A DNA stretch of 64,000 bases from Acidimicrobiia bacterium (GCA_009835395.1 VXXM01000079.1:1-64000), one strand, 5' to 3'; shown: positions 42,113-61,167, counted from the stretch's first letter. Made by a program: numbers and translations. Notes: a model not told the origin generated them from the letters alone.

Positions 42113-43414
42113 ATGAGCAGCCGAACAGCCGGCTGGAGCCGGCACTACGACCTAGCCAACGCCGATCTCGGCTGGCAGTACAAGGGTTGGCTGCTGTCAC
42201 CGGGCGCCGCCGACCTCGATTCAGTCGCCTCGGCGGGGCTGAACCTGTTCGCCGACGACTTCATGTTCCCGGTGATGGTGATCTCCCACAGCGATCTGAT
42301 GCACAACATCGATGTCGTCGCCCGGTTCTGCGCTGACAGTGGCGTGTCGCTGGCCCCGCACGGCAAGACGACCATGTCGCCCGAGTTGTCACACCTGCAG
42401 CTCGAGGCGGGCGCCTGGGCCATCACCGCCTCGACGGGTAGCCAGGCGCGCATCTTCCGGGCCTTCGACATCGGTCGGATCCTCATCGCGCACCAGGTCG
42501 TGGATCCGGCAGCGGTCACCTGGATGGCCGACGAGCTCGACGCCCATCCGGACGTGGACTTGCTGTGCCTGATCGACTCCGTCGAATGCGTCGACCTGAT
42601 GGAGGCGGCACTGGCCGGACGACCCGCAGGGCGGCCCATCGACGGGCTCGTGGAGCTGGGCATGATGGCAGGCCGAACCGGCTGCCGCACGATCGACGGT
42701 GCGGTGCAGGTGGCCGAGCGGATCGCCGCCTCCGACCGGATCCGCCTGGTCGGGGTGGAGGGCTACGAGGGCATCCTGCACTTCCACGGCGACGACTTCA
42801 GCGAGGTCGACGAGTTCCTCCACCGCATGCGGGAGCTCACCGAGCGACTCGCCGCAGCCGGGCACTTCGACCATCTCGAGGAGGTGATCGTCACCGCCGG
42901 CGGCAGCATGTTCCCCGACCGGGTGGTGGAGATCCTGGGCAGCGGCTGGGACATCGGCCGGCCGGTGCGGCCGGTGATCCGCCCCGGTGGCTACGCCACG
43001 CACGACTCGAAGATGTACACCGACTCGGGCCCGTTCGGCGTGCGGGCGCCGATGGACACCTACCCGGCCCTGCGCCCCGCGCTGACGTTGTGGTCCTACG
43101 TGGTCTCCCGGCCGGAACCCGATCTGGCCCTGCTCGGCTTCGGCAAGCGCGACGGCTCCTACGACGTTGACCTGCCCATGCCCGAGGTGCTCCGCCGCGG
43201 CGGCGAGATGTACGACATCGCCGGCCGACTCAAGGTGTTCGAACTCAACGACCAGCACGCCTTCGTGCGCATCGCCCCAGGATTCGACCTCAGAGTCGGC
43301 GACCAGGTGGGATGCGGGATCAGCCACCCCTGCACCTCGTTCGAACGCTGGCGGGCCATCCCCGTCACCGACGACGACCACGACATCGTCGGCTCCGTGC
43401 GTACGTTCTTCTAG
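42113..43414 (+). CDS. PLP-dependent alanine racemase-fold enzyme (D-threonine aldolase / D-serine dehydratase-like)
   Basis: FMFPVMVISHSDLMHNIDVVARFCADSGVSLAPHGKTTMSPEL...ITASTGSQARIFRAF; C-terminal D-Ser dehydratase-like region ending GCGISHPCTSFERWRAIPVTD. Confidence 0.87.
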   Translation: MSSRTAGWSRHYDLANADLGWQYKGWLLSPGAADLDSVASAGLNLFADDFMFPVMVISHSDLMHNIDVVARFCADSGVSLAPHGKTTMSPELSHLQLEAGAWAITASTGSQARIFRAFDIGRILIAHQVVDPAAVTWMADELDAHPDVDLLCLIDSVECVDLMEAALAGRPAGRPIDGLVELGMMAGRTGCRTIDGAVQVAERIAASDRIRLVGVEGYEGILHFHGDDFSEVDEFLHRMRELTERLAAAGHFDHLEEVIVTAGGSMFPDRVVEILGSGWDIGRPVRPVIRPGGYATHDSKMYTDSGPFGVRAPMDTYPALRPALTLWSYVVSRPEPDLALLGFGKRDGSYDVDLPMPEVLRRGGEMYDIAGRLKVFELNDQHAFVRIAPGFDLRVGDQVGCGISHPCTSFERWRAIPVTDDDHDIVGSVRTFF

Positions 43415-43426
43415 GCCGCCTCGGAT

Positions 43427-44920
43427 TCAGGCGAAGACAGTCGGCCGCAGGCCGGCGATGTCGTCGTCGAGGGGGAAGAACGGACGCTGCATCCGCTCGA
43501 ACGGCAGTGATCGCACCGAGGCGGGCGTGGGTCCGGGGGAGTCGATGACGATCACGGGGGCGTCCGGGTACACCATCCGGTAGTTCATCGGGTTCTTGGC
43601 CACGGCGAACTTCGGGGTGAGTGCGTCCACGCCCACCGAGGTGTACTGCTCGCCGGTCCACTCGTAGGTGGGATGGGTGGCGATGACGATCAGCAACCCG
43701 CCGGACCGCAAGACCGCCGTCGGGCCCATCTCGCCGATCACACCCTCCCAGATGCCGCCCTCGTAGACGAAATCGCCGTCGGTGAGCGCCTCCACGATGC
43801 CGGTCACGGTGATCGCTTCGCCCCAGCGCGGATCCAGTTGGTGGCCCAGCCGGACCGTCACCGCCGCGTCGATACCTGCGGCGTGGCATTGCGCGGCCGC
43901 CGCGGGGTCCACCACCGGGGCGACGGACACCGCATCCGGCGCGTGCCGCAGCAACGCTGCGATGCAGGCCACGCTGTCGCCGGCTGCGCCGCCCCCGCAG
44001 GCGTCGGCGGTCTCCATCAGCACGATCGGCTGGTCGTCGATCGCCAGGCCTTGCCGGACGGCCTCGGCGGGGCTCGACATGGCCGGCTCGAACTCGTGGC
44101 GCCGCTGCCAGTACTCCTCGGCGAGCGCGACCGCTGCCTGCCGGGCACCGGCGGCGTCGCCGTCGGTGATGACGAGCCCGCCGCTGCCCATGCCGGGGCG
44201 GTCGATGAACGGATGGACCAGGAACATGCTGGTGGAGAGCACGTCGGGGCGTTCCTCCAGCGCCTTGGCCTTGCGCATCATGTCGGCGAACGGGCCGTCG
44301 CCCTCGGTGGAGCCGTTGACAGCGCCCGTCAACACCGGCACCTTGGCCATCACCATCGTCGGGTGTGCCGCGCCGACGGCGGTATCGACGATCAGCGAGG
44401 CACCGCGCCGGCCGGTGGTGTAGGCGTCACGGTGGGGGTAGGTCTCCCAGGCGACCAGCCCGTCGGCGTTGGTGACCATGTCCTCGGTGACGTGTGCGTG
44501 GAGGTCGAGAGTGGCAACGATCGGGACCTCGGGACCGACGAGGGCGCGGGCGCGCGCCAGCAGGTCGCCCTCGATGTCGTGCACCGTCTCGGACACGGCG
44601 GCGCCGTGCAGTGCCAGCAGCACTGCGTCGACCGGCACAACCGCCTCGAGAGCCGCCAGAAGATGGCGGCGGAGCGTCTCGTAACACTCGGTGGTGAGTG
44701 GCCCGCCGGGGCTCGTCGAGGCGAACAGCAGGGGTACGGGTTGCGCTCCCCGCTCGGCCAGCACCTCCAGCATCCCGCCCATCACACCCCCGGCGACCTC
44801 CAGAACGTCGTCGCCGTAGCGGAGTTCGAATCGCTCGAAGGCGGCGACGTCGATCGGCTGCCCGCCGAAGTCGTTGCACTCGGTCAGGATCCCGCCGACC
44901 GCCACGCGTGGTGAGGGCAT
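43427..44920 (-). CDS. M81 family metallopeptidase (MlrC-like)
   Basis: RVAVGGILTECNDFGGQPIDVAAFERF...LLALHGAAVSETVHDIEGDLLARARALVGPEVPIVATLDLHAHVTEDMV. Confidence 0.9.
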   Translation of the reverse strand: MPSPRVAVGGILTECNDFGGQPIDVAAFERFELRYGDDVLEVAGGVMGGMLEVLAERGAQPVPLLFASTSPGGPLTTECYETLRRHLLAALEAVVPVDAVLLALHGAAVSETVHDIEGDLLARARALVGPEVPIVATLDLHAHVTEDMVTNADGLVAWETYPHRDAYTTGRRGASLIVDTAVGAAHPTMVMAKVPVLTGAVNGSTEGDGPFADMMRKAKALEERPDVLSTSMFLVHPFIDRPGMGSGGLVITDGDAAGARQAAVALAEEYWQRRHEFEPAMSSPAEAVRQGLAIDDQPIVLMETADACGGGAAGDSVACIAALLRHAPDAVSVAPVVDPAAAAQCHAAGIDAAVTVRLGHQLDPRWGEAITVTGIVEALTDGDFVYEGGIWEGVIGEMGPTAVLRSGGLLIVIATHPTYEWTGEQYTSVGVDALTPKFAVAKNPMNYRMVYPDAPVIVIDSPGPTPASVRSLPFERMQRPFFPLDDDIAGLRPTVFA

Positions 44921-44953
44921 GTTCCGGCCTCCTCTCCTCTGGCTCGCCGGTCG

Positions 44954-45820
44954 TCAGTCCAGGCCGTAGGCCCGGCAGGCGGATCGCCATTGCAGGTCCT
45001 CGGTGGCCTCGGCGTCCAGCGGAGCGATGAGCGCCTCGAAGGCCTCGACCTGGCGCGGGTAGCCGCCGCCGACGTTGCACACCGGCCAGTCGCTGCCGAA
45101 CATCAGGCGCCCGGAACCGAAGGACTCGAGGGCCACCTCGAAGGCGCCGCGCAGGTCGTCGGGCGTCCAGTCGGCGTGCGGCGTGACGTTGTGAAGCCCC
45201 GAGACCTTGGCGAACACGTTCGGGAAGCTCGCCACCGCGCCCATCAACTCCACCCAGCGCGGGAAGTCGTCGGTGCCGATGGGTGGCTTGTTCAGGTGGT
45301 CGATCACGATGTGGAGGTCGCCGACCGCACTCGCCAGGGTGGGCACGTGCTCGAGGTGGCGCAACTGCACCCCCACGAAGTCGTAGGCCATCCCGTGCTC
45401 CGCCAGCACGCTCAGGCTCTCGCCGACCTCCGGTCGCAGCACCCAGTCGGGGTCGGGCTCGTCGTGGATCAGGTGACGGATCCCCACGACCGGCCCGGCG
45501 GCCTGCAGGGCGTCCAGTGCCGCGGGTGCGCTCTCGGGGTCGAGCAGGTCGAACCAGCCGACGACGGCGGTGACCCGGTTGCCGGCAGCCGTCACGGCGA
45601 GCATGGCCTCGGTGTCGGCGAGGCTGTTCTCGGCCTGGACGAGAATCGCTTCGGTCACACCTGCGGCCTCGATGTGCTCCCGTGCCTCGTCAACGCGGAA
45701 CGTCCTACGGAGTTGGTGGAACGCCGGCGGCAGGTCGGCGTCCAGCCAGGCGTATTCGCACTGGTCGAGGTCCCACTGGTGGAGGTGGGTGTCGATGAGC
45801 CGGGTGGCGGTTTCAGACAT
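44954..45820 (-). CDS. Amidohydrolase family protein (L-fuconolactonase-like)
   Basis: LIDTHLHQWDLDQCEYAWL...VIDHLNKPPIG...RLMFGSDWPVCNVGGGY. Confidence 0.88.
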   Translation of the reverse strand: MSETATRLIDTHLHQWDLDQCEYAWLDADLPPAFHQLRRTFRVDEAREHIEAAGVTEAILVQAENSLADTEAMLAVTAAGNRVTAVVGWFDLLDPESAPAALDALQAAGPVVGIRHLIHDEPDPDWVLRPEVGESLSVLAEHGMAYDFVGVQLRHLEHVPTLASAVGDLHIVIDHLNKPPIGTDDFPRWVELMGAVASFPNVFAKVSGLHNVTPHADWTPDDLRGAFEVALESFGSGRLMFGSDWPVCNVGGGYPRQVEAFEALIAPLDAEATEDLQWRSACRAYGLD

Positions 45821-45926
45821 GGTCTCGGCCTCCGGATGATGTTCGGGCAGGATGGCGTTCACGGGCTCGAGCGACGCGACGGCGCCGCTTGCTGCCGGCA
45901 GGCGATGGGCTGTGCACGGCCACCCC

Positions 45927-46733
45927 TCACTTGGTGGCGCCCGCGGTGAGGCCGCGGACGAAGTACCTCTGCAGCAGCAGGTAGAACACCAGCACCGGGA
46001 TCGACACGAAGAGCATGTAGCTGAAGAGCTGCCCGTAGTTCACGTCGAACTGCCCGACCGACCGGAACAACCCGACGGTGACCGTGTTGCCCTGCAGCGG
46101 ACCCAGCAGCACCAGCGGGGGCAGGAACTCGTTCCACACCCAAACCCCGCAGATCACCAGCACGCTCGCCGTGGCCGGCCGCAGCAGCGGCAGGATCACC
46201 GACCAGTAGATGGATGCCAGGGAGGCGCCGTCTATCGAGGCCGCTTCGGCCAGCTCCCTCGGGATCGACCGCATGAAGCCGCGATACACGAGCACGGCGA
46301 ACGGGGCGTAGTAGGCGCACAGGAACAGGATGAGTCCCGGGAAGCTGTTCTCCAGCCCGACGTACTTCAGCACCCGGAACACCGGGATCAGGATCACCGG
46401 AGTCGGCAGGATCAGGCCGAAGAGAATGACGGTGCCGACGGTGTTGCTGATCCAGCTGTTGGACATGTGGAGGGCGAACGCCAGCATCGAGGACACGACC
46501 ATGATCAGGGCGATCGTCGAACCCGTGATGAGCAGCGAGTTCACCAGCCCGCCGGTCACGTCCCCGACGCTGAGCACCCCCGACATGCCGTCCAGGGTCG
46601 GACCGATGGGCGGCTTGGCCGGCGATCGCAGGATCTCGGGGTCGGTCTTGAAGGCGTTGGCGATCACCAGGTACAGGGGGAACAGGAAGAAGGCCGAGAC
46701 GACGATCGCCAGCAGTGCCCGGAGCTGGCGCAT
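45927..46733 (-). CDS. Carbohydrate ABC transporter permease (MalG type)
   Basis: FFLFPLYLVIANAFKTDPEI...GFMRSIPRELAEAASIDGASLASIYWSVILPLLRP EAA motif. Confidence 0.92.
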   Translation of the reverse strand: MRQLRALLAIVVSAFFLFPLYLVIANAFKTDPEILRSPAKPPIGPTLDGMSGVLSVGDVTGGLVNSLLITGSTIALIMVVSSMLAFALHMSNSWISNTVGTVILFGLILPTPVILIPVFRVLKYVGLENSFPGLILFLCAYYAPFAVLVYRGFMRSIPRELAEAASIDGASLASIYWSVILPLLRPATASVLVICGVWVWNEFLPPLVLLGPLQGNTVTVGLFRSVGQFDVNYGQLFSYMLFVSIPVLVFYLLLQRYFVRGLTAGATK

Positions 46734-47695
46734 CACAACTCCACCTCGCGGCGCCGCAGCACCCGGAGCGAGATGACCGTTGTCGCCGCGGTGATCACCA
46801 GCAACAACACCGCCATCGACGAGGCCAGGCCGGCGCGATTCTGGGTGAACCCGGCGCGGATGATCGCCAGCCCGACGGTCTCCGACGAACGTCCCGGTCC
46901 ACCCCCCGTCAACGCCACGACGTGGTCGTAGAGCTTCAGGGCGGAGATGAGCGAGATCAGGGTCGTGATGGTCACCGCGGGCGCCACCAGCGGCCAGGTG
47001 ATGAGGCGGAACCGCAGGTATCCCGAGGCACCGTCGATGGAGGCCGCCTCGTAGAGGTCGGTCGGGATGGCCCGGAGCGAGGCCACGTAGATGACGGTGG
47101 CGAACGCGATGAGCTGCCACGCCAGTGCCAAGCCGACCGACACGACGGCCAGATTGGGGGAGGCGATCCACTCCGGTCCGGGGATCCCCAGCGCCTCGAG
47201 CGCGTTGTTCAGCGAGCCGTCGTTGGCCAGCGTCCAGCGGAACGTCAGGCCCACGACGAGGGGACTGAGGACGAACGGCGCGAACAGGATGATGCGCAAC
47301 GTCGTGTAGAGCCGCGACCCTGCGTCCAGCAGCACCGCGAAGAGCAACCCCAGAGCGTTGGGGATGACAACCGAGGCGGCGGCGATCAGGAGGGTGACGT
47401 AGAGGGCGTGGCGGAAGTCGCCGCTCTCCCAGAGCTTGGCGTAGTTGCTGAAGCCCACCCACGAGATCTCGTCCCGCAGGAAGTTCACGTCGTTGAGGCT
47501 GTAGTGGACGGTGATGCCGATGGGCGCCACCACCAGCGCTGCGAACAGCGCCGTGGTGGGCGCGCCCATCGCCATCAGCCCGAAGCTGCGCCGCCCCGCG
47601 CCGGGCGGCCGGCTGCGCCCTCCGGCTCGACGGCCGGAGGGGCGCTCGGCGCGACTCCGCCCCGGCAGGAGGGTGCTCCTGGCGGCGGAGGTCAA
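46733..47695 (-). CDS. Sugar ABC transporter permease (MalF/UgpA type), start uncertain
   Basis: VVAPIGITVHYSLNDVNFLRDEISWVGFSNYAKLW...LRAIPTDLYEAASIDGASGYLRFRLITWPLVAP EAA motif. Confidence 0.9.
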   Translation of the reverse strand: MTSAARSTLLPGRSRAERPSGRRAGGRSRPPGAGRRSFGLMAMGAPTTALFAALVVAPIGITVHYSLNDVNFLRDEISWVGFSNYAKLWESGDFRHALYVTLLIAAASVVIPNALGLLFAVLLDAGSRLYTTLRIILFAPFVLSPLVVGLTFRWTLANDGSLNNALEALGIPGPEWIASPNLAVVSVGLALAWQLIAFATVIYVASLRAIPTDLYEAASIDGASGYLRFRLITWPLVAPAVTITTLISLISALKLYDHVVALTGGGPGRSSETVGLAIIRAGFTQNRAGLASSMAVLLLVITAATTVISLRVLRRREVEL

Positions 47696-47705
47696 GTTGG
47701 TTGGT

Positions 47706-49496
47706 TTAGCCGGAGAGGTCTTCGAGGGCGTCCTGGAGGGCCTGCGCGGCCTCCTCCGCCGACCTGCCCGCAAGCATCTCCTGGGCCTGGATCCAGATTT
47801 CGTTCTGGAGGCCCGCCACCAGGGCGTCGTCGCCCACCTCGAAGGTGTAGAAGGCGACCTGCTGCGCGTCCGGATCAGCGAGGATCTCGATGACCTCGGT
47901 GATCAGCGGGTGCAACTCGACGTCGTCGGGCAGCACGAACAGCTTGTTGTTGGCGATGTGCGCGTCACGGATCAGGTCGTCGAGGTTCGTCTCGACGTTC
48001 GTGGCGAACTCCACCGAGAACAGCCGCGCCGCCTCCGGATCAGGGGTAGCGGCCGAGATGGCCGGGCCACCCGACGTGTACGTCGCCAGGCGCTTGGTTC
48101 CGTCGAGGGTGGGCATCGGGAAGATGCCGATCTCGAACGGATGGTCCATGGGCACCGCCCCTGCGAAGAAGCTGCCCATCGGGTACATCGCCGCGGCGCC
48201 GTCGAGGAACGTCTGCTGCAGATCCGCGTAGCCGAGGTTCAACTCCTCGCCGGTGAGCCAGCCGGCCGCGACCAGCTGCTCGTACGGCCGCAGGGCCTCC
48301 ACGAAGATCGGGTCGGTGAAGCTGGCCTCACCGGTGCGCAGCCTCTGGTTGAACGTGGGATCCGCGCCCGTCACGTTGAGCGAGGCCAGGTTCATGATCG
48401 GCCAGCCTGCGGCCCAGGCATCGCCCCCGGCGCCGCCGATGACGAACGGGGTCTCACCCGATGCGGCGATCGCCAGGGCCGCGTTGATGAACTCTTCCCA
48501 GGTCTCCGGCTCGGACGTGATGCCGGCCGCGTCGAACATGTCCTTGTTGTAGAACACGCCCGACTCGTAGACCGTCAGCATCGGCAGCGCGTACTGCTTG
48601 CCGTCGGTGTAGCCGAGGCCCACCGGGTCGATGAACCGCTCCAGGTCCTCCGGCTCAAACGGCAGGAGCAGGCCCTCGGCGATGAACTCCGCGGTGGAGA
48701 AGTTGCTCATCATGATGTCGGGGAGTTGGTCGGTTGCGGCCAGCTGCTTGAGGAAGTCGCCGATGTTGAGGTCGGGAGCCACGATCTTGTTGATCTTGAA
48801 CTGCGGGAAGTCCGCCACCGTGCGGGCGATGGCGTCGTCCCAGAACTCCGCCGGCAGGTTCGGCGTCTCGAAGACCAGGAAGTCCAACTCGATCAGCTCG
48901 GCAGCGGGTGCGGCTGCTGCCGCTTCGGCCTCGGCCGCGGCCGCTGCTGCCGCCTCGGCCTCGGCCCGAGCCTCGTCGGCTTCGGCCTGCGCGGCCTCTG
49001 CCTCGGCCTGCGCGGCGGCTGCGGCCTCCCGAGCCTCGTCGGCTTCGGCCTGCGCGGCCTCTGCCTCGGCCTGCGCGGCCGCGGCCTCCGACAGCGCTGC
49101 GTCGGCGGCGGCCTGCGCGTCGGCGAGCGCTGCTTCGGCCGCGGCCACCGCTGCCTCATTGCCCTCGGCGGTGGCCTGTGCAAGATCGGCGGCGGCCTGC
49201 GCCGCCTCAGCTGCAGCCTGAGCCGCCTCTGACGCGGCGAGCCCCGCGTCAGCTGCGGCCTCTGCGGCGGCGGCGTCGGCGATCCCGGTGGCGGCGTCGG
49301 CCTGTGCACTCCGAACCCCCGCCGCCGTCGCCTCAACCTCGGTCATCGCCTCGGCCGCTGCGGCGGCAGCGCTCCGGGCCTCGGCCATTGCCGCGTCAGC
49401 GGCCTCCGAGCCTGAGTCGTCTGCCGCGCACGCCGCTGCCAGAAGCGTCAACACGAGCAGCGCCGCAAGAACTCCGCTCTTCCTCAGGTGTCTCAT
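47706..49496 (-). CDS. Extracellular solute-binding lipoprotein (SBP family 1) with long Ala-rich coiled-coil stalk
   Basis: MRHLRKSGVLAALLVLTLLAAAC lipobox; ~175-aa Ala/Glu/Gln-rich segment; SBP domain LIELDFLVFETPNLPAEFWDDAIARTVADFPQFKINKIVAPDLNIGDFLKQLAATDQLPDIMM. Confidence 0.9.
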   Translation of the reverse strand: MRHLRKSGVLAALLVLTLLAAACAADDSGSEAADAAMAEARSAAAAAAEAMTEVEATAAGVRSAQADAATGIADAAAAEAAADAGLAASEAAQAAAEAAQAAADLAQATAEGNEAAVAAAEAALADAQAAADAALSEAAAAQAEAEAAQAEADEAREAAAAAQAEAEAAQAEADEARAEAEAAAAAAAEAEAAAAAPAAELIELDFLVFETPNLPAEFWDDAIARTVADFPQFKINKIVAPDLNIGDFLKQLAATDQLPDIMMSNFSTAEFIAEGLLLPFEPEDLERFIDPVGLGYTDGKQYALPMLTVYESGVFYNKDMFDAAGITSEPETWEEFINAALAIAASGETPFVIGGAGGDAWAAGWPIMNLASLNVTGADPTFNQRLRTGEASFTDPIFVEALRPYEQLVAAGWLTGEELNLGYADLQQTFLDGAAAMYPMGSFFAGAVPMDHPFEIGIFPMPTLDGTKRLATYTSGGPAISAATPDPEAARLFSVEFATNVETNLDDLIRDAHIANNKLFVLPDDVELHPLITEVIEILADPDAQQVAFYTFEVGDDALVAGLQNEIWIQAQEMLAGRSAEEAAQALQDALEDLSG

Positions 49497-49751
49497 GGGT
49501 CCTCCAGTCGCGGAATTCTTGCCCGATGCCGCCCTGCCCGCGAACAAGACTTGTCGGCGGCAACGAGAAACTGCCGGGGGCACAGTAACCGGTGCTCCGC
49601 TGTGTGGGAAATGAGTAGCTCGTTGCTCGCGGCAACCTCCGACGGCTACGCATGAGCGGGAAAAACAGGGCTGTACTACAGTGCCGATCGCCGGCGCCAC
49701 TGGGGGGAGGCGCCCCTCCTTCCGTTACGGCGTTGGCGGAAGGAGATCACT

Positions 49752-51779
49752 ATGGAACCGCGACACAGCCGCCGTTGGAGGCGGTTGATCGTGCTCGCTG
49801 CTGTGACGATGCTCATCGCCGCCTCGTGCGCGGCCGATGACTCTGCATCGGATGCCGCTGATGCCGCAGCAGCGGCCGCCAATGCCGCAATGGCGGAGGC
49901 GAGCAGCGCAGCCGCCGATGCGGCAGACGCCATGGCCGAAGCTCGAGCCACGGCGGCGGACGCCGCCACCGGCATCGCCGACGCGGCAGCCGCGGATGCC
50001 GCAGCTGCGGCGGCGCTCGCCGCGGCCGAGGCGGCGCAGGCCGCCGCCGACCTGGCGCAGGCCACCGCCGAGGGCAACGTGGAGGCCATGGCCGCTGCCG
50101 AAGCCGCGCTTGCCGACGCGCAAGCCGCCGCGGAGGCGGCGCTCTCGGAGGCCGCAGCCGCACAGGCCGAAGCCGACGAGGCGCGGGCCGCGGCCGACGC
50201 GGCACGCGAGGAGGCCGCCGCAGCGCAGGCCGAAGCCGATGCGGCGCGCGCCGAAGCCGAAGCAGCAGCTGCGGGTGCAGCCGCGGCGCCGGGCGGCCCG
50301 CAGCGCGGTGGGACGCTCACCTTCGCCCGGTTCTTCGAGACGCAGAACCTCGACCCGGCGGGGGTGGCCGACAACGGATCCATCTTCGTGCGGGTGCAGA
50401 TCTACAACACCCTCGTGGAAGCCGACCCCGACACCATCCCGAACGTCGGCCCGGGGATCGCCGACGAATGGAGTTCCAGCCCCGACGGCATGACCTGGAC
50501 GTTCCACATCCGCGACAACGCACGGTTCTCCAACGGCGAGCCGGTCACGGCCGAGGACGTGCAGTTCTCGCTGGAGCGCTTCGCGGACCCGACGATCAGC
50601 GTGAACATCCCGAGCCTCGGCGTCGGGGTCGAGAGCGTGGACATCATCGATGATCAGACGGTGCAGGTGAACCTGGACCGCCCGGTCGGGGCGTTCCTCG
50701 AGAACATCTCGGTGTTCCCCGCATCGATCATCAACAAGGCCGCCGTGGAGGCCGAAGGCGACGACCACTGGTTGAACCCGCTCGGCACCGGCCCGTTCAA
50801 GGTGAAGGAATGGGTACCCGGCTCGCACATCACCCTCGAGCGCAACGAGTACTACTGGGAGGAGGGCAAGCCGTATCTCGACGAGATCCGGTTCGACTAC
50901 ATCCCCGACGACAACGCCCGCATGCTGCGCATGCAAGGTGGCGACGCCCACATCCTGGAGGGCGTGCCCTGGACGCAGATCCCCGACCTGCAGGACAGCG
51001 AGGGGTTCAGCATCCACGTGGCTGACATCGTCCGCTACGAGGGCGTGTTCCTGAACCACACCATCCCGCCGCTCGACGAGATCGGCGTGCGCCAGGCTCT
51101 GAACTACGCCACCAACAAGGCGGCGATCAACGAGGCGGTCTACGGGGGCGTCGGCGAGATCGCCAACAGCATGATCCCCAAGGCGCTGTACCACTCCGAC
51201 TACGACACGCTGCCGGCGTACTTCTACGACCTCGAGAGGGCCCAGGAACTGATGGCGGCGTCGTCGATGCCCGACGGCTTCGATCTCGCCTATATCTACC
51301 CGTCGGGATCCACTGCCCACGAGCAACTCGGGACCATCCTCCAGGCGGACTGGGCGAAGATCGGCGTGAACCTCACCATCGAGGAGGTGGACACCGGCAC
51401 GCTGTTCGGCGACCGCTTCTTCACGATGGAGTACGAGTCGGGCGTGCCGCTGCCCAAGTTCACGTCCGACGTGGTCGTGCCCGACGAGGTGGCGTTGCTG
51501 TTCTACGACAAGGCCCCGGAGAACATCCTGGCCGGGTTCTTCACCGGCTGGGACATCCCCGACGAACTCGAGCGCCTCACCGAGGAGGCGGCGTTCACGA
51601 ACGATGAGGCCATACGGGCCGAACTCTGGCCGGAGGTGCAGCGCATCGCCATGGAGGAGGCCCCGTGGGTGACACTGTTCTTCCTGCCCACCGTGCACGC
51701 GGTGGCCGACGGTGTCGAGGGATTCCGTGTCGTGCCCAACGGCTGGTGGGACATGGAGGATGTCTGGCTCAGCGGCTGA
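49752..51779 (+). CDS. ABC transporter substrate-binding lipoprotein (SBP family 5, Dpp/Opp type) with the same Ala-rich stalk
   Basis: VLAAVTMLIAASC lipobox; Ala-rich stalk; GGTLTFARFFETQNLDP...VGPGIADEWSSSPDGMTWTFHIRDNARFSNGEPVTAEDVQFSLERF. Confidence 0.92.
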   Translation: MEPRHSRRWRRLIVLAAVTMLIAASCAADDSASDAADAAAAAANAAMAEASSAAADAADAMAEARATAADAATGIADAAAADAAAAAALAAAEAAQAAADLAQATAEGNVEAMAAAEAALADAQAAAEAALSEAAAAQAEADEARAAADAAREEAAAAQAEADAARAEAEAAAAGAAAAPGGPQRGGTLTFARFFETQNLDPAGVADNGSIFVRVQIYNTLVEADPDTIPNVGPGIADEWSSSPDGMTWTFHIRDNARFSNGEPVTAEDVQFSLERFADPTISVNIPSLGVGVESVDIIDDQTVQVNLDRPVGAFLENISVFPASIINKAAVEAEGDDHWLNPLGTGPFKVKEWVPGSHITLERNEYYWEEGKPYLDEIRFDYIPDDNARMLRMQGGDAHILEGVPWTQIPDLQDSEGFSIHVADIVRYEGVFLNHTIPPLDEIGVRQALNYATNKAAINEAVYGGVGEIANSMIPKALYHSDYDTLPAYFYDLERAQELMAASSMPDGFDLAYIYPSGSTAHEQLGTILQADWAKIGVNLTIEEVDTGTLFGDRFFTMEYESGVPLPKFTSDVVVPDEVALLFYDKAPENILAGFFTGWDIPDELERLTEEAAFTNDEAIRAELWPEVQRIAMEEAPWVTLFFLPTVHAVADGVEGFRVVPNGWWDMEDVWLSG

Positions 51780-51874: not shown

Positions 51875-52822
51875 ATGTGGGGGTTCCTAGGGCGACGGGT
51901 GCTGCACAGCATCTGGGTGCTGGCCGCCATCATCATCGTGTCGTTCCTGGTCATCCGGCTCATACCGGGCGACCCGGTCGTGCAGATGCTGGGACTCCAG
52001 GCGACACCGGAGAACATCGCGGCTGTCAACGAGGACCTCGGGTTGGACCTCCCGATGGGTCAGCAGATCACCTCGTTCGTGCAGCGCGCCTTCCAGGGCG
52101 ACCTGGGCACGTCCATCATCAAGCGGGCGCCCGTGAACGACATCGTGTTCGACAGGCTCCTGCCCTCGGTTTACCTGCTCCTGTATGCCACGGTCCTGGC
52201 GCTGATCATCTCGGTACCGCTCGGCGCCCTCTCGGCCATCTACCGCAATCGCGTGCCTGACCAGATCGTCCGGCTGACAAGCATGGTGTCCTTCGCCATG
52301 CCGCAGTTCTGGCTGGGCCTGATGCTGATCCTGCTGTTCGCCATCCAGCTCGACGTGTTGCCCAGCGGGGGTTACGGGGAGGGGTTCGGCGGGATCCTCC
52401 TGCACCTCACGCTGCCGGCGCTCACGATCGGCCTCTACCTCGCCCCGCAGCTCATGCGCACGCTGCGGTCGAGCCTCATCGAGGCGATCGACAGCGACTA
52501 CGTGGAGGCTGCCCGCTCCCGGGGCTACCGGGAGAGCCGGGTGGTGGGCAAGCTGGCCATGCGCAACGCCCTGGTGCCGCTGATCAGCGTTCTCTCCATC
52601 AACATCGGCTTCCTCATCAGCGGCACGGTGATCGTGGAGGTGGTCTTCCAGGTGCCGGGCCTCGGGGCCCTGCTCGTGCAGTCGGTGCTCAACAGGGACT
52701 ACCCGGTGATCCAGGGGCTGATCCTCGTCTTCGGGGCGATGGTCATTCTCGTCAACATCCTCGCTGACGCCGCCTACGCCGTGGTCGACCCGAGGGTGCG
52801 AGCAGGGATGGCCGCCGAATGA
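51875..52822 (+). CDS. ABC transporter permease, DppB type
   Basis: MWGFLGRRVLHSIWVLAAIIIVSFLVIRLIPGDPV...AARSRGYRESRVVGKLAMRNALVPLISV. Confidence 0.93.
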   Translation: MWGFLGRRVLHSIWVLAAIIIVSFLVIRLIPGDPVVQMLGLQATPENIAAVNEDLGLDLPMGQQITSFVQRAFQGDLGTSIIKRAPVNDIVFDRLLPSVYLLLYATVLALIISVPLGALSAIYRNRVPDQIVRLTSMVSFAMPQFWLGLMLILLFAIQLDVLPSGGYGEGFGGILLHLTLPALTIGLYLAPQLMRTLRSSLIEAIDSDYVEAARSRGYRESRVVGKLAMRNALVPLISVLSINIGFLISGTVIVEVVFQVPGLGALLVQSVLNRDYPVIQGLILVFGAMVILVNILADAAYAVVDPRVRAGMAAE

Positions 52823-53721
52823 GGACCCTCGCCTGGGCGGGCCGCCGTGCCGTGGGCCTCAGAGGGGAGGCGGCCGACCTGCTGCGCCAGGCCCAGACGG
52901 AGCGGCGCTGGTCGAACGTCACCCTGGGCGTCGGGATCGCCATCGTGGGCGCGCTCGCGGTCGCGGGCTTCTTCGCATCCGTGATCGCTCCCGCCGACCC
53001 CAATGCCGTCGACCTGACCCAGCGGCTGCTGAGTCCCTCCGGGAAGCACTGGATGGGAACCGATCCGTTCGGTCGGGACATCTTCACCCGCACGCTCTAC
53101 GCCATCCGGCTCGACCTCATCGTCGTTCTCATCATCACTTACGTTCCGATGGTCTTCGGGATGATCGTGGGGGCGCTCGCCGGCTACTTCCGGGGGTGGG
53201 TGGACGCCGTCACGATCCGTGTGATCGACGCCTTCATCGCCTTCCCGTTCATCGTGCTGGTGATCGCCGTGGTGGCGATCCTGGGGCCGGGACTGCAGGG
53301 GGTGTACATCGGGGTTCTCGCCGTGGGTTGGACCTTGTACGCCCGCCTCACCAGGGGCGACATGCTGGTGCTGCGCGAGCAGCAGTTCATCCTGGCGGCG
53401 CGCACGCTGGGCTACTCGCCGCGGCGGGTCATCCTCCGCCACGCCATCCCAAACCTGATCAGGTCGAACCTGGTGTTCTCGATGGCCGACATCGTGCTGA
53501 ACCTGCTGCTGCTGGCGGGGCTGTCGTACCTGGGGTTGGGTGTGCAGGCGCCGACGGCGGAGCTGGGTGCGATGGTTGCCGACGGCCAGTCGTTCCTGCT
53601 CCAGGCGTGGTGGGTGACGACGCTGCCGGGCGTGGTGATCGTGGTCCTCGGCGCGGGCTTCAGCATGATCGGTGATTCGCTGGCCGACCGCCTCGGCCAG
53701 AAGTTCGGAGTGGTCGGATGA
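52819..53721 (+). CDS. ABC transporter permease, DppC type
   Basis: RLLSPSGKHWMGTDPFGRDIFTRTLYAIRLDL...AARTLGYSPRRVILRHAIPNLI. Confidence 0.93.
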   Translation: MRTLAWAGRRAVGLRGEAADLLRQAQTERRWSNVTLGVGIAIVGALAVAGFFASVIAPADPNAVDLTQRLLSPSGKHWMGTDPFGRDIFTRTLYAIRLDLIVVLIITYVPMVFGMIVGALAGYFRGWVDAVTIRVIDAFIAFPFIVLVIAVVAILGPGLQGVYIGVLAVGWTLYARLTRGDMLVLREQQFILAARTLGYSPRRVILRHAIPNLIRSNLVFSMADIVLNLLLLAGLSYLGLGVQAPTAELGAMVADGQSFLLQAWWVTTLPGVVIVVLGAGFSMIGDSLADRLGQKFGVVG

Positions 53722-54740
53722 CGTCCCTCGACGCGGCGCCCCGAACCGACCGGCCGGAGGCGAGCGCAACTCCGCTCCTCACCATCGAAGGTCTCCGCAT
53801 CGGCTTCCCGTCGCTGGAGGGCCTCGTCCTCGCCGCCAACGACGCTCATCTGACCGTCGGTGAGGGTGAGGTCCTGGGGCTGGTCGGGGAGTCGGGGTCG
53901 GGCAAGAGCGTGACGTGCCGTGCCATCGTGGGGATGGTTCCCCATCCGGGGGCGGTACTCGGGGGGCGTATCGACTTCGCCGGGCGCAACGTCCTGGAAT
54001 TCAGCAAGGCTGAGATGCGCGAGCTACGGGCCCGCCAGATCGCCATGATCTTCCAGGATCCTGCCAGCGCCCTCAACCCGGTCTTCACGATCGGCCACCA
54101 GATCTCCGAGGTCCTGCGGCTGAACGCCGGACTCAGCCGAGCCGAGGCCCGGAACAGGAGCATCGAGTTGCTGGAGCGGGTGGGGATCCCGGCGCCGGAC
54201 AGGCGCATGTCGGCATACCCGCACGAGATGAGCGGCGGTATGCGCCAGCGGGTCATGATCGCCATGGCGCTGGCAGGCGAGCCTCGCCTGTTGCTGGCCG
54301 ACGAGCCGACGACCGCCCTTGACGTCACGATCCAGGATCAGGTGTTGCGGCTTCTCGAGGACCTGCGGCGGGAGCGCAACATGTCGATGATCCTTGTCTC
54401 GCACGACATGGGGGTCATCGGCACGGCCGCCGACCGCGTGGCAGTCATGTACGCCGGGCGCATCGTGGAGGTTGCCCCGACCGATGTCCTGTTCTCGCGC
54501 CCCGACCATCCCTACACCCGGGCGCTAATCGATGCGATGCCGCAACTCACCCCGGAGGATCGGTCCGACCTTCGCACCATCCCGGGCCAGCCGCCCGACC
54601 TGCTGAAGCTGCCGGAGGGTTGCCCCTTCGCCCCTCGCTGCCCGCTTGCGCGCGACGAGTGCGCAGAGGTGTCGATGGAGTTGACCGCCGTCTCGCCGGC
54701 GCAGTCCTCGGCGTGCCCGTTCGCGCGGGACGGGTCATGA
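53718..54740 (+). CDS. ABC transporter ATP-binding protein, DppD type
   Basis: GLVGESGSGKSVTCRAIVGM; MSGGMRQRVMIAMALAGEPRLLLADEPTTALD; Cys-rich oligo_HPY tail. Confidence 0.94.
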   Translation: MTSLDAAPRTDRPEASATPLLTIEGLRIGFPSLEGLVLAANDAHLTVGEGEVLGLVGESGSGKSVTCRAIVGMVPHPGAVLGGRIDFAGRNVLEFSKAEMRELRARQIAMIFQDPASALNPVFTIGHQISEVLRLNAGLSRAEARNRSIELLERVGIPAPDRRMSAYPHEMSGGMRQRVMIAMALAGEPRLLLADEPTTALDVTIQDQVLRLLEDLRRERNMSMILVSHDMGVIGTAADRVAVMYAGRIVEVAPTDVLFSRPDHPYTRALIDAMPQLTPEDRSDLRTIPGQPPDLLKLPEGCPFAPRCPLARDECAEVSMELTAVSPAQSSACPFARDGS

Positions 54741-55759
54741 GTGCGCACGCGCCCACCGGTGCTCGCGACGGCGTGCCGATTCTCGTGGTGGCGGCGCTGG
54801 AGAAGTGGTTCGCCGTCGCACGCTCGCCTATCGACGTGATTCGCCGGAGGCCGCGAGAGCGCGTTCACGCCGTGGACGGTGTCTCGCTGCAACTGCTGCC
54901 GAACGAGGTGCTCGGGATCGTCGGCGAATCAGGGAGCGGCAAGAGCACCCTGGCCCGCTGTCTGGTCGCCCTGTACCGGCCCGATCAGGGGACCATCAAC
55001 TTCGACGGGGTCGACGTCACCGAGGCCACGGGACAGGTGCGCCGCGATCTCCACGGCCGGATGCAGATGATCTACCAGGATCCGTTCACCTCGCTCAACC
55101 CGCAGATGTCGATCGGCGCGGCCATCGAGGAGGCCGGCAAGGTGCACGGCCGCGAGGGCGACGACTTCGTGGGTGACCTCCTCGAAGTGGTCGGATTGCC
55201 GCGTTCGTTCGCTCGGCGCCGGCCCCGGGCGCTGAGCGGGGGGCAGCGGCAGCGGGCCGCCATCGCTCGAGCGCTGGCCGTGCAACCCGAGGTACTGATC
55301 GCGGATGAGGCCGTGAGCGCGCTCGACGTGTCCATCCAGGCTCAGATCCTGAACCTGTTCGCCCAGCTCAGCGACGATCTGGGCCTGGCGATGATCTTCA
55401 TCGCCCACGATCTGGCCGTCGTCTCCCACGTCGCCGACCGCGTCGCCATCATGTACCTCGGGCGGATCGTCGAGGAGGGTCCGGTCGAGTCCGTCTTCCG
55501 CACCCCCAGGCATCCGTACACGCGGGCGCTGCTCGACGCCCACCCCGATCCGTACGCGCTCGGCGCGGCCGAGGAGACCGCCGCGATCTCGGGAGACATC
55601 CCCTCGCCGCTCGACATCCCGTCGGGATGCCGTTTCCGGACCCGCTGCCCCTACGCCACGGACGTCTGCGAGACCGATGATCCGGCGCTCGCGCCCGACG
55701 ACCGGCCGCATCGAGTGGCCTGTCACGTGCTGCCGTTCGGACCCCCGGCGGAGGGTTAG
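54737..55759 (+). CDS. ABC transporter ATP-binding protein, DppF type
   Basis: GIVGESGSGKSTLARCLVALYRP; LSGGQRQRAAIARALAVQPEVLIADEAVSALD. Confidence 0.94.
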   Translation: MSAHAPTGARDGVPILVVAALEKWFAVARSPIDVIRRRPRERVHAVDGVSLQLLPNEVLGIVGESGSGKSTLARCLVALYRPDQGTINFDGVDVTEATGQVRRDLHGRMQMIYQDPFTSLNPQMSIGAAIEEAGKVHGREGDDFVGDLLEVVGLPRSFARRRPRALSGGQRQRAAIARALAVQPEVLIADEAVSALDVSIQAQILNLFAQLSDDLGLAMIFIAHDLAVVSHVADRVAIMYLGRIVEEGPVESVFRTPRHPYTRALLDAHPDPYALGAAEETAAISGDIPSPLDIPSGCRFRTRCPYATDVCETDDPALAPDDRPHRVACHVLPFGPPAEG

Positions 55760-60192: not shown

Positions 60193-61167
60193 GTGAAGAG
60201 AATCTCAGGCCTTCTGGGCCTCATCCTGGCCGTCGTCCTCGTAGCCGCGGCCTGCGGCGGCGACGACGACGAGAAGACGGTTGGTTTCGCCAACATTCTG
60301 CGGACGGGTTGCGAGTTCTGCAATGACGTGGAGAACGGTGTCACAGCGGAGACGGCCGACGCCGGTTGGGAGTTGTACGCCCTCGACCACGACCTGGACG
60401 CCAACAAGATGCTCGCCAACGCCGACGCCATGATCACCCGCGAGGTGGACGTCTATCTGAACTTCGACGGCGGCATCACGAACTACGAAGCGACGCTGGA
60501 GAAGATGGCCGACGCGGAGATCCCGATGATCTTCATTGACGGCCCGATCCCCGAGCCGGCCGATGACGTGTACTGGTTCGGCGCGCACGGCCAGTCGGCA
60601 GGCCAGCAGATGGGCGAGTATGCCCTCGACTACATCAACAACAATTGGGGTGGCAACGTCGACGGCATCTTCGGTATCTACCAGAGCACCTGGCCCGATG
60701 AGACCAAGGCGCGCATGGTCGTGGCCATGGACGTCATCTCCCAGCAGTTCCCGGAGTGGACGATGGACACGATCACCCTCAACGACGTCGTGCTGGAGGG
60801 CTCGGAGACGCAGGCCGCGGCCGCGGCGTACCTGAACGCCAACCCGGACGCCAAGAACCTGCTGTTCATCGCCACGACCAACGACCTCGCCGGCGTGGCC
60901 GTGGTGGCGGCCATGGAGCAACTCGGTCGCCTCGACGCGGGCGTGGTGCTGTCCAACGGCGGCGCCTCGGACGCCCTGGCGGAGATCCGCGATCCGGACT
61001 CGCCGTTCATCATGTCGATCGGCTACTTCCCGGATCGCTACGGCGAGTTCCTGCGTCCGATCATCGCAACGATTCTCGACGGTGACACGCCCGCCCAGCG
61101 GGTGAACCACGTCACCCACGTCCCCATCGACGCCAGCAACATCGACGAGTGGTACCCCGAGGGCTGA
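60193..61167 (+). CDS. Sugar-type ABC transporter substrate-binding lipoprotein (periplasmic-binding/LacI-like), no stalk
   Basis: MKRISGLLGLILAVVLVAAACGGDDDEKTVGFANILRTGCEFCNDVENGVTAETADAGWELYALDHDLDANKMLANADAMI. Confidence 0.88.
   Translation: MKRISGLLGLILAVVLVAAACGGDDDEKTVGFANILRTGCEFCNDVENGVTAETADAGWELYALDHDLDANKMLANADAMITREVDVYLNFDGGITNYEATLEKMADAEIPMIFIDGPIPEPADDVYWFGAHGQSAGQQMGEYALDYINNNWGGNVDGIFGIYQSTWPDETKARMVVAMDVISQQFPEWTMDTITLNDVVLEGSETQAAAAAYLNANPDAKNLLFIATTNDLAGVAVVAAMEQLGRLDAGVVLSNGGASDALAEIRDPDSPFIMSIGYFPDRYGEFLRPIIATILDGDTPAQRVNHVTHVPIDASNIDEWYPEG

Follow-up and report, generated by a model that had tools for sequence, protein, structure and literature searches.

An alanine-rich lipoprotein stalk in one actinobacterial genus, probably a mobile helical hairpin

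Two neighbouring genes in a 64,000-nucleotide stretch from an Acidimicrobiia bacterium (VXXM01000079.1:1-64000, the whole of which we refer to as the window) encode lipoproteins with binding-protein (SBP) domains of different families, each with a long alanine-rich segment between the lipobox Cys and the domain. The question raised by this locus is whether the two segments, which we call stalks, are related or only look alike, and what such a stalk would do.

The locus and its two stalks

Gene A (47706-49496, minus strand, from the ATG at 49496 to a stop ending at 47706) encodes a stalked lipoprotein of 596 aa with an SBP_bac_1 domain (PF01547, E=2.7e-27), and gene B (49752-51779, plus strand) encodes one of 675 aa with an SBP_bac_5 domain of Dpp/Opp type (PF00496, E=1.2e-92). 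By their coordinates the genes are divergent, with an intergenic region of 255 bp (49497-49751). Both domain assignments are above the Pfam curated cut-off and both genes adjoin ABC permease genes. Downstream of A there are two of these (PF00528, in 45927-47773, minus strand, at 46733-47773 and about 45927-46730), and downstream of B there are permease genes and oligopeptide-type ATPase genes, two of each (51875-55759, plus strand; PF00528, PF00005 and PF08352). No RNA element was found within the window.

In A the signal peptide (49428-49496, minus strand, MRHLRKSGVLAALLVLTLLAAAC) ends in the lipobox Cys (codon 49428-49430). The N-arm of the stalk, counted from this Cys through the end of a putative turn, has 91 residues (49158-49430) and ends in the core turn motif LAQATAEGN (49158-49184); the C-arm has 83 residues (48909-49157) and is followed by the ligand-binding domain (47709-48908), all on the minus strand. 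The corresponding parts of B, on the plus strand, are the signal peptide (49752-49829, MEPRHSRRWRRLIVLAAVTMLIAASC, Cys codon 49827-49829), an N-arm of 84 residues (49827-50078) with the motif at 50052-50078, a C-arm of 70 residues (50079-50288) and the domain (50289-51776). The motifs were located by pattern match, and the chance expectation for LAQATAEGN in the window is 0.

The first-pass annotation had described both proteins as having a lipobox and then a long Ala/Glu/Gln stalk ahead of the binding domain, with different domains attached, and the arm lengths and Pfam assignments given above agree with this. The sequence blocks that it quoted (CAADDS, DAATGIADAAAA, EAAQAAADLAQATAEGN and AAAEAALADAQAAA) were found in both stalks, and the third SBP of the window (60193-61167, Peripla_BP_4) has the lipobox and no stalk, as it had said.

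Stalk composition is 55% Ala, with a net charge of about -16 per 100 residues and almost no Lys, and this rules out a single alpha-helix (SAH) domain, which is rich in Glu, Lys and Arg with i,i+4 salt bridges. Similarity due to composition alone had been named as one of two grounds on which the proposal of a common stalk would fall, and it does not account for the data. The two stalks align with a score of 476, while stalks shuffled by composition, dipeptide or block gave mean scores of 236-263 (236±11 in one set) and maxima of 290-314, which puts the natural alignment at z 16-23. Copies with rotated repeats scored up to 467, so shared periodicity accounts for much of the score, and it is the natural register that gives the top score. 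All four gaps in the alignment are of exactly 7 residues, which is one heptad.

Anatomy and spread of the stalk

For description of the stalk we number residues from the end of the turn, with a at phase 3 and d at phase 6. The repeat of seven is very strong (chi2/df 337-370 for period 7 and at most 47 for other periods), with the small or hydrophobic a and d residues of a heptad coiled coil. Ala is present at a and d in 94 and 91% of cases in the N-arm and in 76 and 99% in the C-arm, and both arms thus have the Ala at a or d in every seventh residue that marks an Alacoil. The residues around the turn are also well conserved, and in family-weighted figures those on its N-arm side are Leu -9 (96%), Ala -8 (100%), Gln -7 (82%), Thr -5 (97%) and Ala -4 (100%), those of the corner are Glu -3 (79%), Gly -2 (100%) and Asn -1 (89%), and those of the C-arm are Val +3 (76%), Glu +7 (94%), Leu +10 (100%) and Gln +14 (90%), beyond which Ala continues at a and d through some six more heptads. 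The module ranges from 107 to 197 residues, and an N-arm of about 54-96 residues would be 8-14 nm long if fully helical. There is also a variant in three segments, of 54, 60 and about 60 residues, at G000:C80:83 kb.

Between orthologs the a and d positions have 0-2.6% amino-acid change as against 29-51% silent change, showing that the stalk is selected as a folded coiled coil. Surface positions have up to 34% amino-acid change, and the f position of the N-arm near the turn is also almost invariant. The second ground for setting the proposal aside, a stalk that is disordered and not conserved in orthologs, is thus contradicted by the conservation and by selection on the helix core, and a composition artefact is ruled out by the core selection and the shuffles together. 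One could still suppose that slippage in 21-bp repeats in GC-rich DNA has given look-alike Ala-rich tails by convergence, with no selected structure, and 21-bp indels are the expected product of such slippage. However the a and d positions are fixed in amino acid and free in codon, non-Ala signature residues are common across families and the two arms change together, and we consider such drift very improbable.

The stalk is present on many proteins. With stalk B as query there are 20 places in its own genome, and a profile search gives 24. We extracted 130 stalk proteins from the genus and its sister genus, and 122 of them have the lipobox Cys at the start; the remaining 8 are truncated at a contig end or frame-broken, and every uncut copy begins at the lipobox Cys. 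Grouping by domain similarity gives about 25 ortholog families in 8 genomes of one genus. The claim that two SBP families share a stalk was thus right as to the sharing, but understated the number. The Pfam domains found behind the stalk are SBP_bac_1/8, SBP_bac_5, OpuAC, NMT1, Peripla_BP_4, Peripla_BP_6, Bmp, Peptidase_M16 and vWF_A, and one stalked family has no Pfam assignment. Most of the stalked proteins are thus nutrient-binding. SBPs without the stalk are also present in this genome, and have no linker or Pro/Ala-rich linkers; most Peripla_BP_4 matches are in reading frames too short to hold a stalk.

With regard to other organisms, the DNA pattern for AQATAEGN is present in 8/8 genomes of the genus and in 0/53 further genomes from its family and order, and the stalk profile found none in the class (246 other genomes) and none in the phylum (397 genomes). 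The longer LAQATAEGN pattern matched 48 stretches across 85,462 species. Six MAGs that correspond to six of the genus genomes account for 42 of these, and four are chance matches (Crenothrix twice, a Planctomycetota PASTA-like repeat and Marinomonas RpoC). The other two come from an "Acidobacteria" bin of the same sample series, where the contigs carry the same SBP_5 family and are probably misbinned. The sister genus, represented by one genome, has two diverged copies, one on a domain like that of family F2 (Peripla_BP_4) and the other on a domain like that of family F7 (Peripla_BP_6), indicating that the module predates the genus and then expanded within it. Among the lineages searched the stalk is nearly genus-specific, these two diverged copies being the exception. 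The bin names IRC4, APA, COS4 and RHO2 agree with sponges sampled in PMC8163846, and on that basis members of the genus are apparently sponge symbionts.

It may be asked if the stalks arose independently on the different SBPs, as Ala-core heptads limit the residues that can be used. Against this, each signature position of the core motif is common to 76-100% of families, the motif is in no other lineage among the 85,462 species save for the chance matches and the probably misbinned contigs, and central stalk segments of unrelated SBPs have up to 91% DNA identity. We regard convergence as extremely improbable and favour a common origin.

Geometry of the stalk

An AlphaFold2 model of stalk B with 38 aligned stalks has helices at 2-80 and 85-153 with a break at A-E-G-N (50067-50078; pLDDT 90, pTM 0.75), and the model of full-length A has helices of the same length as each other at 6-87 and 92-172, although its SBP portion is unusable, the alignment being too shallow, and the position of the SBP relative to the hairpin cannot be read from it. 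The input was a single chain, which is a bias towards intramolecular hairpins. Foldseek with the stalk model has antiparallel hairpins among its matches, for example an SMC arm at TM 0.70, with the poor E-values expected for coiled coils. It also gives weak matches to extracytoplasmic hairpins, the RipA N-terminal domain (Mycobacterium) and the AcrA/MexA hairpin, which are likewise hairpin coiled coils outside the membrane but belong to other sequence families and are not N-terminal modules common to many lipoproteins.

The lengths of the arms point the same way. Nonzero differences in N-arm length between orthologs are multiples of 7 in 83/112 cases, and in 12/12 families with a change of N-arm length the C-arm follows it, longer or shorter (p=0.0005 with family as the unit). 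In family F0 one ortholog pair has an 84-bp difference in both arms, and in family F3 one pair has differences of 84 and 81 bp. The correlation of arm lengths is 0.83 for 99 proteins with composition-based ends and 0.77 for family medians, but it falls to 0.38 when the arms are defined strictly by heptad runs, and in some families the arms are unequal (105 and 74-76; 85 and 88). With a at 3 and d at 6, antiparallel a-d' layers need residue numbers that sum to -5, and the centre of a hairpin would thus lie between Glu -3 and Gly -2, which is where the models break.

The alternative is a straight parallel rod, an Lpp-like dimer or trimer that would lift the SBP by about 22-26 nm, with EGN as a kink or register marker. 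The heptad register continues unbroken through the turn, and in the C-arm there is Glu at g and Gln or Arg at e, a pattern that suits parallel helix packing. However Gly at 100% and Asn at 89% at the break, Leu -9 kept at 96% although a straight coil would expose it to solvent, the covariation of the arms and the AlphaFold2 hairpins for both A and B all argue against it, and the SBP would presumably sit far from its permease. We think a straight rod unlikely. The preferred reading, which we put at about two chances in three, is that the stalk is a mobile, genus-restricted, lipid-anchored antiparallel alpha-helical hairpin. The first-pass annotation had proposed a spacer that lifts the SBP off the membrane. 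A real, conserved and structured coiled coil is there, but with the EGN turn, the matched arms and the models it probably does not lift the SBP, since the modelled chain turns back towards the membrane.

Close known counterparts of the stalk are the antiparallel Alacoils or alanine zippers of Rop type (Gernert et al. 1995, cited in PMC3037368). The stalk is like these in its heptad Ala core, tight turn of the two-residue type and, in the model, antiparallel arms. It differs in its far longer arms (50-100 residues), in having Ala at a and d alike, and in being an extracytoplasmic, lipid-anchored and reusable fusion module.

Braun's lipoprotein (Lpp) also has an Ala-rich heptad coil straight after its acylated Cys. 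However Lpp is a short straight trimer, with no turn and no C-terminal domain, and none of 38 stalks had a match to Lpp, or to any other Pfam or NCBIfam family, at E 0.01. The PDB sequences likewise gave no family that matches the stalk, and a literature search found nothing relevant on stalked SBPs. The C-terminal domains and gene neighbourhood are those of lipoprotein SBPs of ABC importers. These usually have only a short linker following the Cys, whereas here a folded module of 107-197 residues stands ahead of the domain. The stalk would work like an Alacoil hairpin and resembles Lpp as an Ala-rich lipoprotein coil, while having no known sequence family.

Exchange between genes and possible role

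In 81/109 stalks that have an ortholog the nearest stalk is that of the ortholog. A stalk is thus for the most part passed on together with its gene, although some stalks clearly depart from this. The A stalk has 84-89% DNA identity to the stalk of an SBP_1 gene on contig C45 of this genome, while outside the stalk the domain and upstream DNA of the two genes have 46-51% identity and the domain proteins 26%. With its own orthologs, in contrast, A has 91% DNA identity in the domain and only 75-79% in the stalk. In a tree of stalk DNA the A stalk of this genome falls among the C45 family, while in most species the A and B stalks group together (100/99). A single clade of A stalks is rejected (p-AU 0.001), and a single clade of the C45 family is rejected more weakly (p-AU 0.028). 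The stalks of the head-to-head neighbours are thus closely related in most species, and the A stalk has been replaced in this genome. The suggestion of module shuffling is thus borne out by the identity of the A and C45 stalks as compared with their flanks and by the rejected clade, and the data support transfer of stalks from one gene to another through gene conversion or a process like it.

We suggest that the hairpin may work as follows. Beyond the short acidic linker that follows the lipobox Cys, an N-arm whose a/d core is all alanine would project outward to a corner at the conserved E-G-N, and a C-arm of roughly matching length would come back and release the attached domain (SBP, M16 or vWF_A) close to the membrane. 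Because the C-arm leads back towards the lipid anchor, an SBP would stay beside its permease, as docking requires. The hairpin itself would be an acidic bristle of helices, about 8-14 nm long, reaching into the wall zone, that may space or retain the lipoproteins. The almost invariant f face of the N-arm near the turn and the uniform register could permit side-by-side packing of different lipoproteins, and recombination (gene conversion) between the parts of unrelated genes that encode stalks would spread the copies. We infer a function as a bristle or spacer, or else as a clustering device.

The second of these roles agrees with the hairpin and differs as to its purpose: hairpins of different lipoproteins would pair into Rop-like four-helix bundles, giving mixed SBP arrays. 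Cores with Ala at every a and d are typical of antiparallel bundles that are tight and, as a rule, tetrameric (PMC3037368), the register and core are common to about 25 families, the almost invariant f position near the turn is a possible second face, and gene conversion would keep stalks compatible. However the high negative charge disfavours tight packing, and arm lengths vary between families inside one genome. We consider clustering possible but doubtful. More speculative, and rather doubtful, is a genus-wide common chassis in which the gene-conversion-maintained hairpin would pack more than 20 unrelated nutrient-binding lipoproteins, a peptidase and a vWF_A protein of an actinobacterial symbiont in mixed arrays or a defined layer.

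It is unusual to find one extracytoplasmic structural module shuffled onto some 25 lipoprotein families in a single bacterial genus. The stalks, probably all-alanine coiled-coil hairpins, are a natural graded-length series for testing the rules of coiled-coil design, and they make the arrangement of binding proteins outside the membrane of these uncultured, apparently sponge-associated Actinobacteria testable.

Stalk length, turns and linkers

In most cases a Pro-rich linker separates the short stalks (N-arm 62-64 residues; families F0, F7, F11, F12 and F14) from the domain; most long stalks join the domain directly, with no such linker. Variant forms are also found. The SBP_5 lipoprotein L007 (G000:C80:81000-85500, in the genome under study) has AAED at the position of AEGN, the end of the core turn motif. 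Its stalk falls into three segments, 54, 60 and about 60 residues long, which points to a three-helix version. In the family-9 SBP L127 (G003:C137) the AGN turn occurs twice at a spacing of 28 residues, an apparent duplication of the core.

Genes around A and frames with two Peripla_BP_4 matches

Adjoining the permease genes of A, the stalked SBP_bac_1 lipoprotein, are genes judged by eye to be amidohydrolase-, MlrC-type- and D-threonine-aldolase-like (window 42113-47773), and no ATPase gene adjoins A in that interval. Elsewhere in the genome two open frames (G000:C52:41815-43653 and G000:C22:53476-55167) each hold two Peripla_BP_4 matches, possibly tandem binding domains within one protein.

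Distribution of the stalk

The stalked SBP_5 family is also present on two contigs (L169 and L179) of the Acidobacteria bin COS4_bin_27, which are probably misbinned and derived from the Acidimicrobiia genus. A shortened stalk is present on a vWF_A-domain lipoprotein (L088, G004:C405), placed behind a Pro/Ala-rich linker. The stalk of the SBPs is also carried by an M16 (insulinase-like) peptidase lipoprotein (L040, G000:C54:5000-10500; L107, G002), and the module thus extends beyond SBPs.
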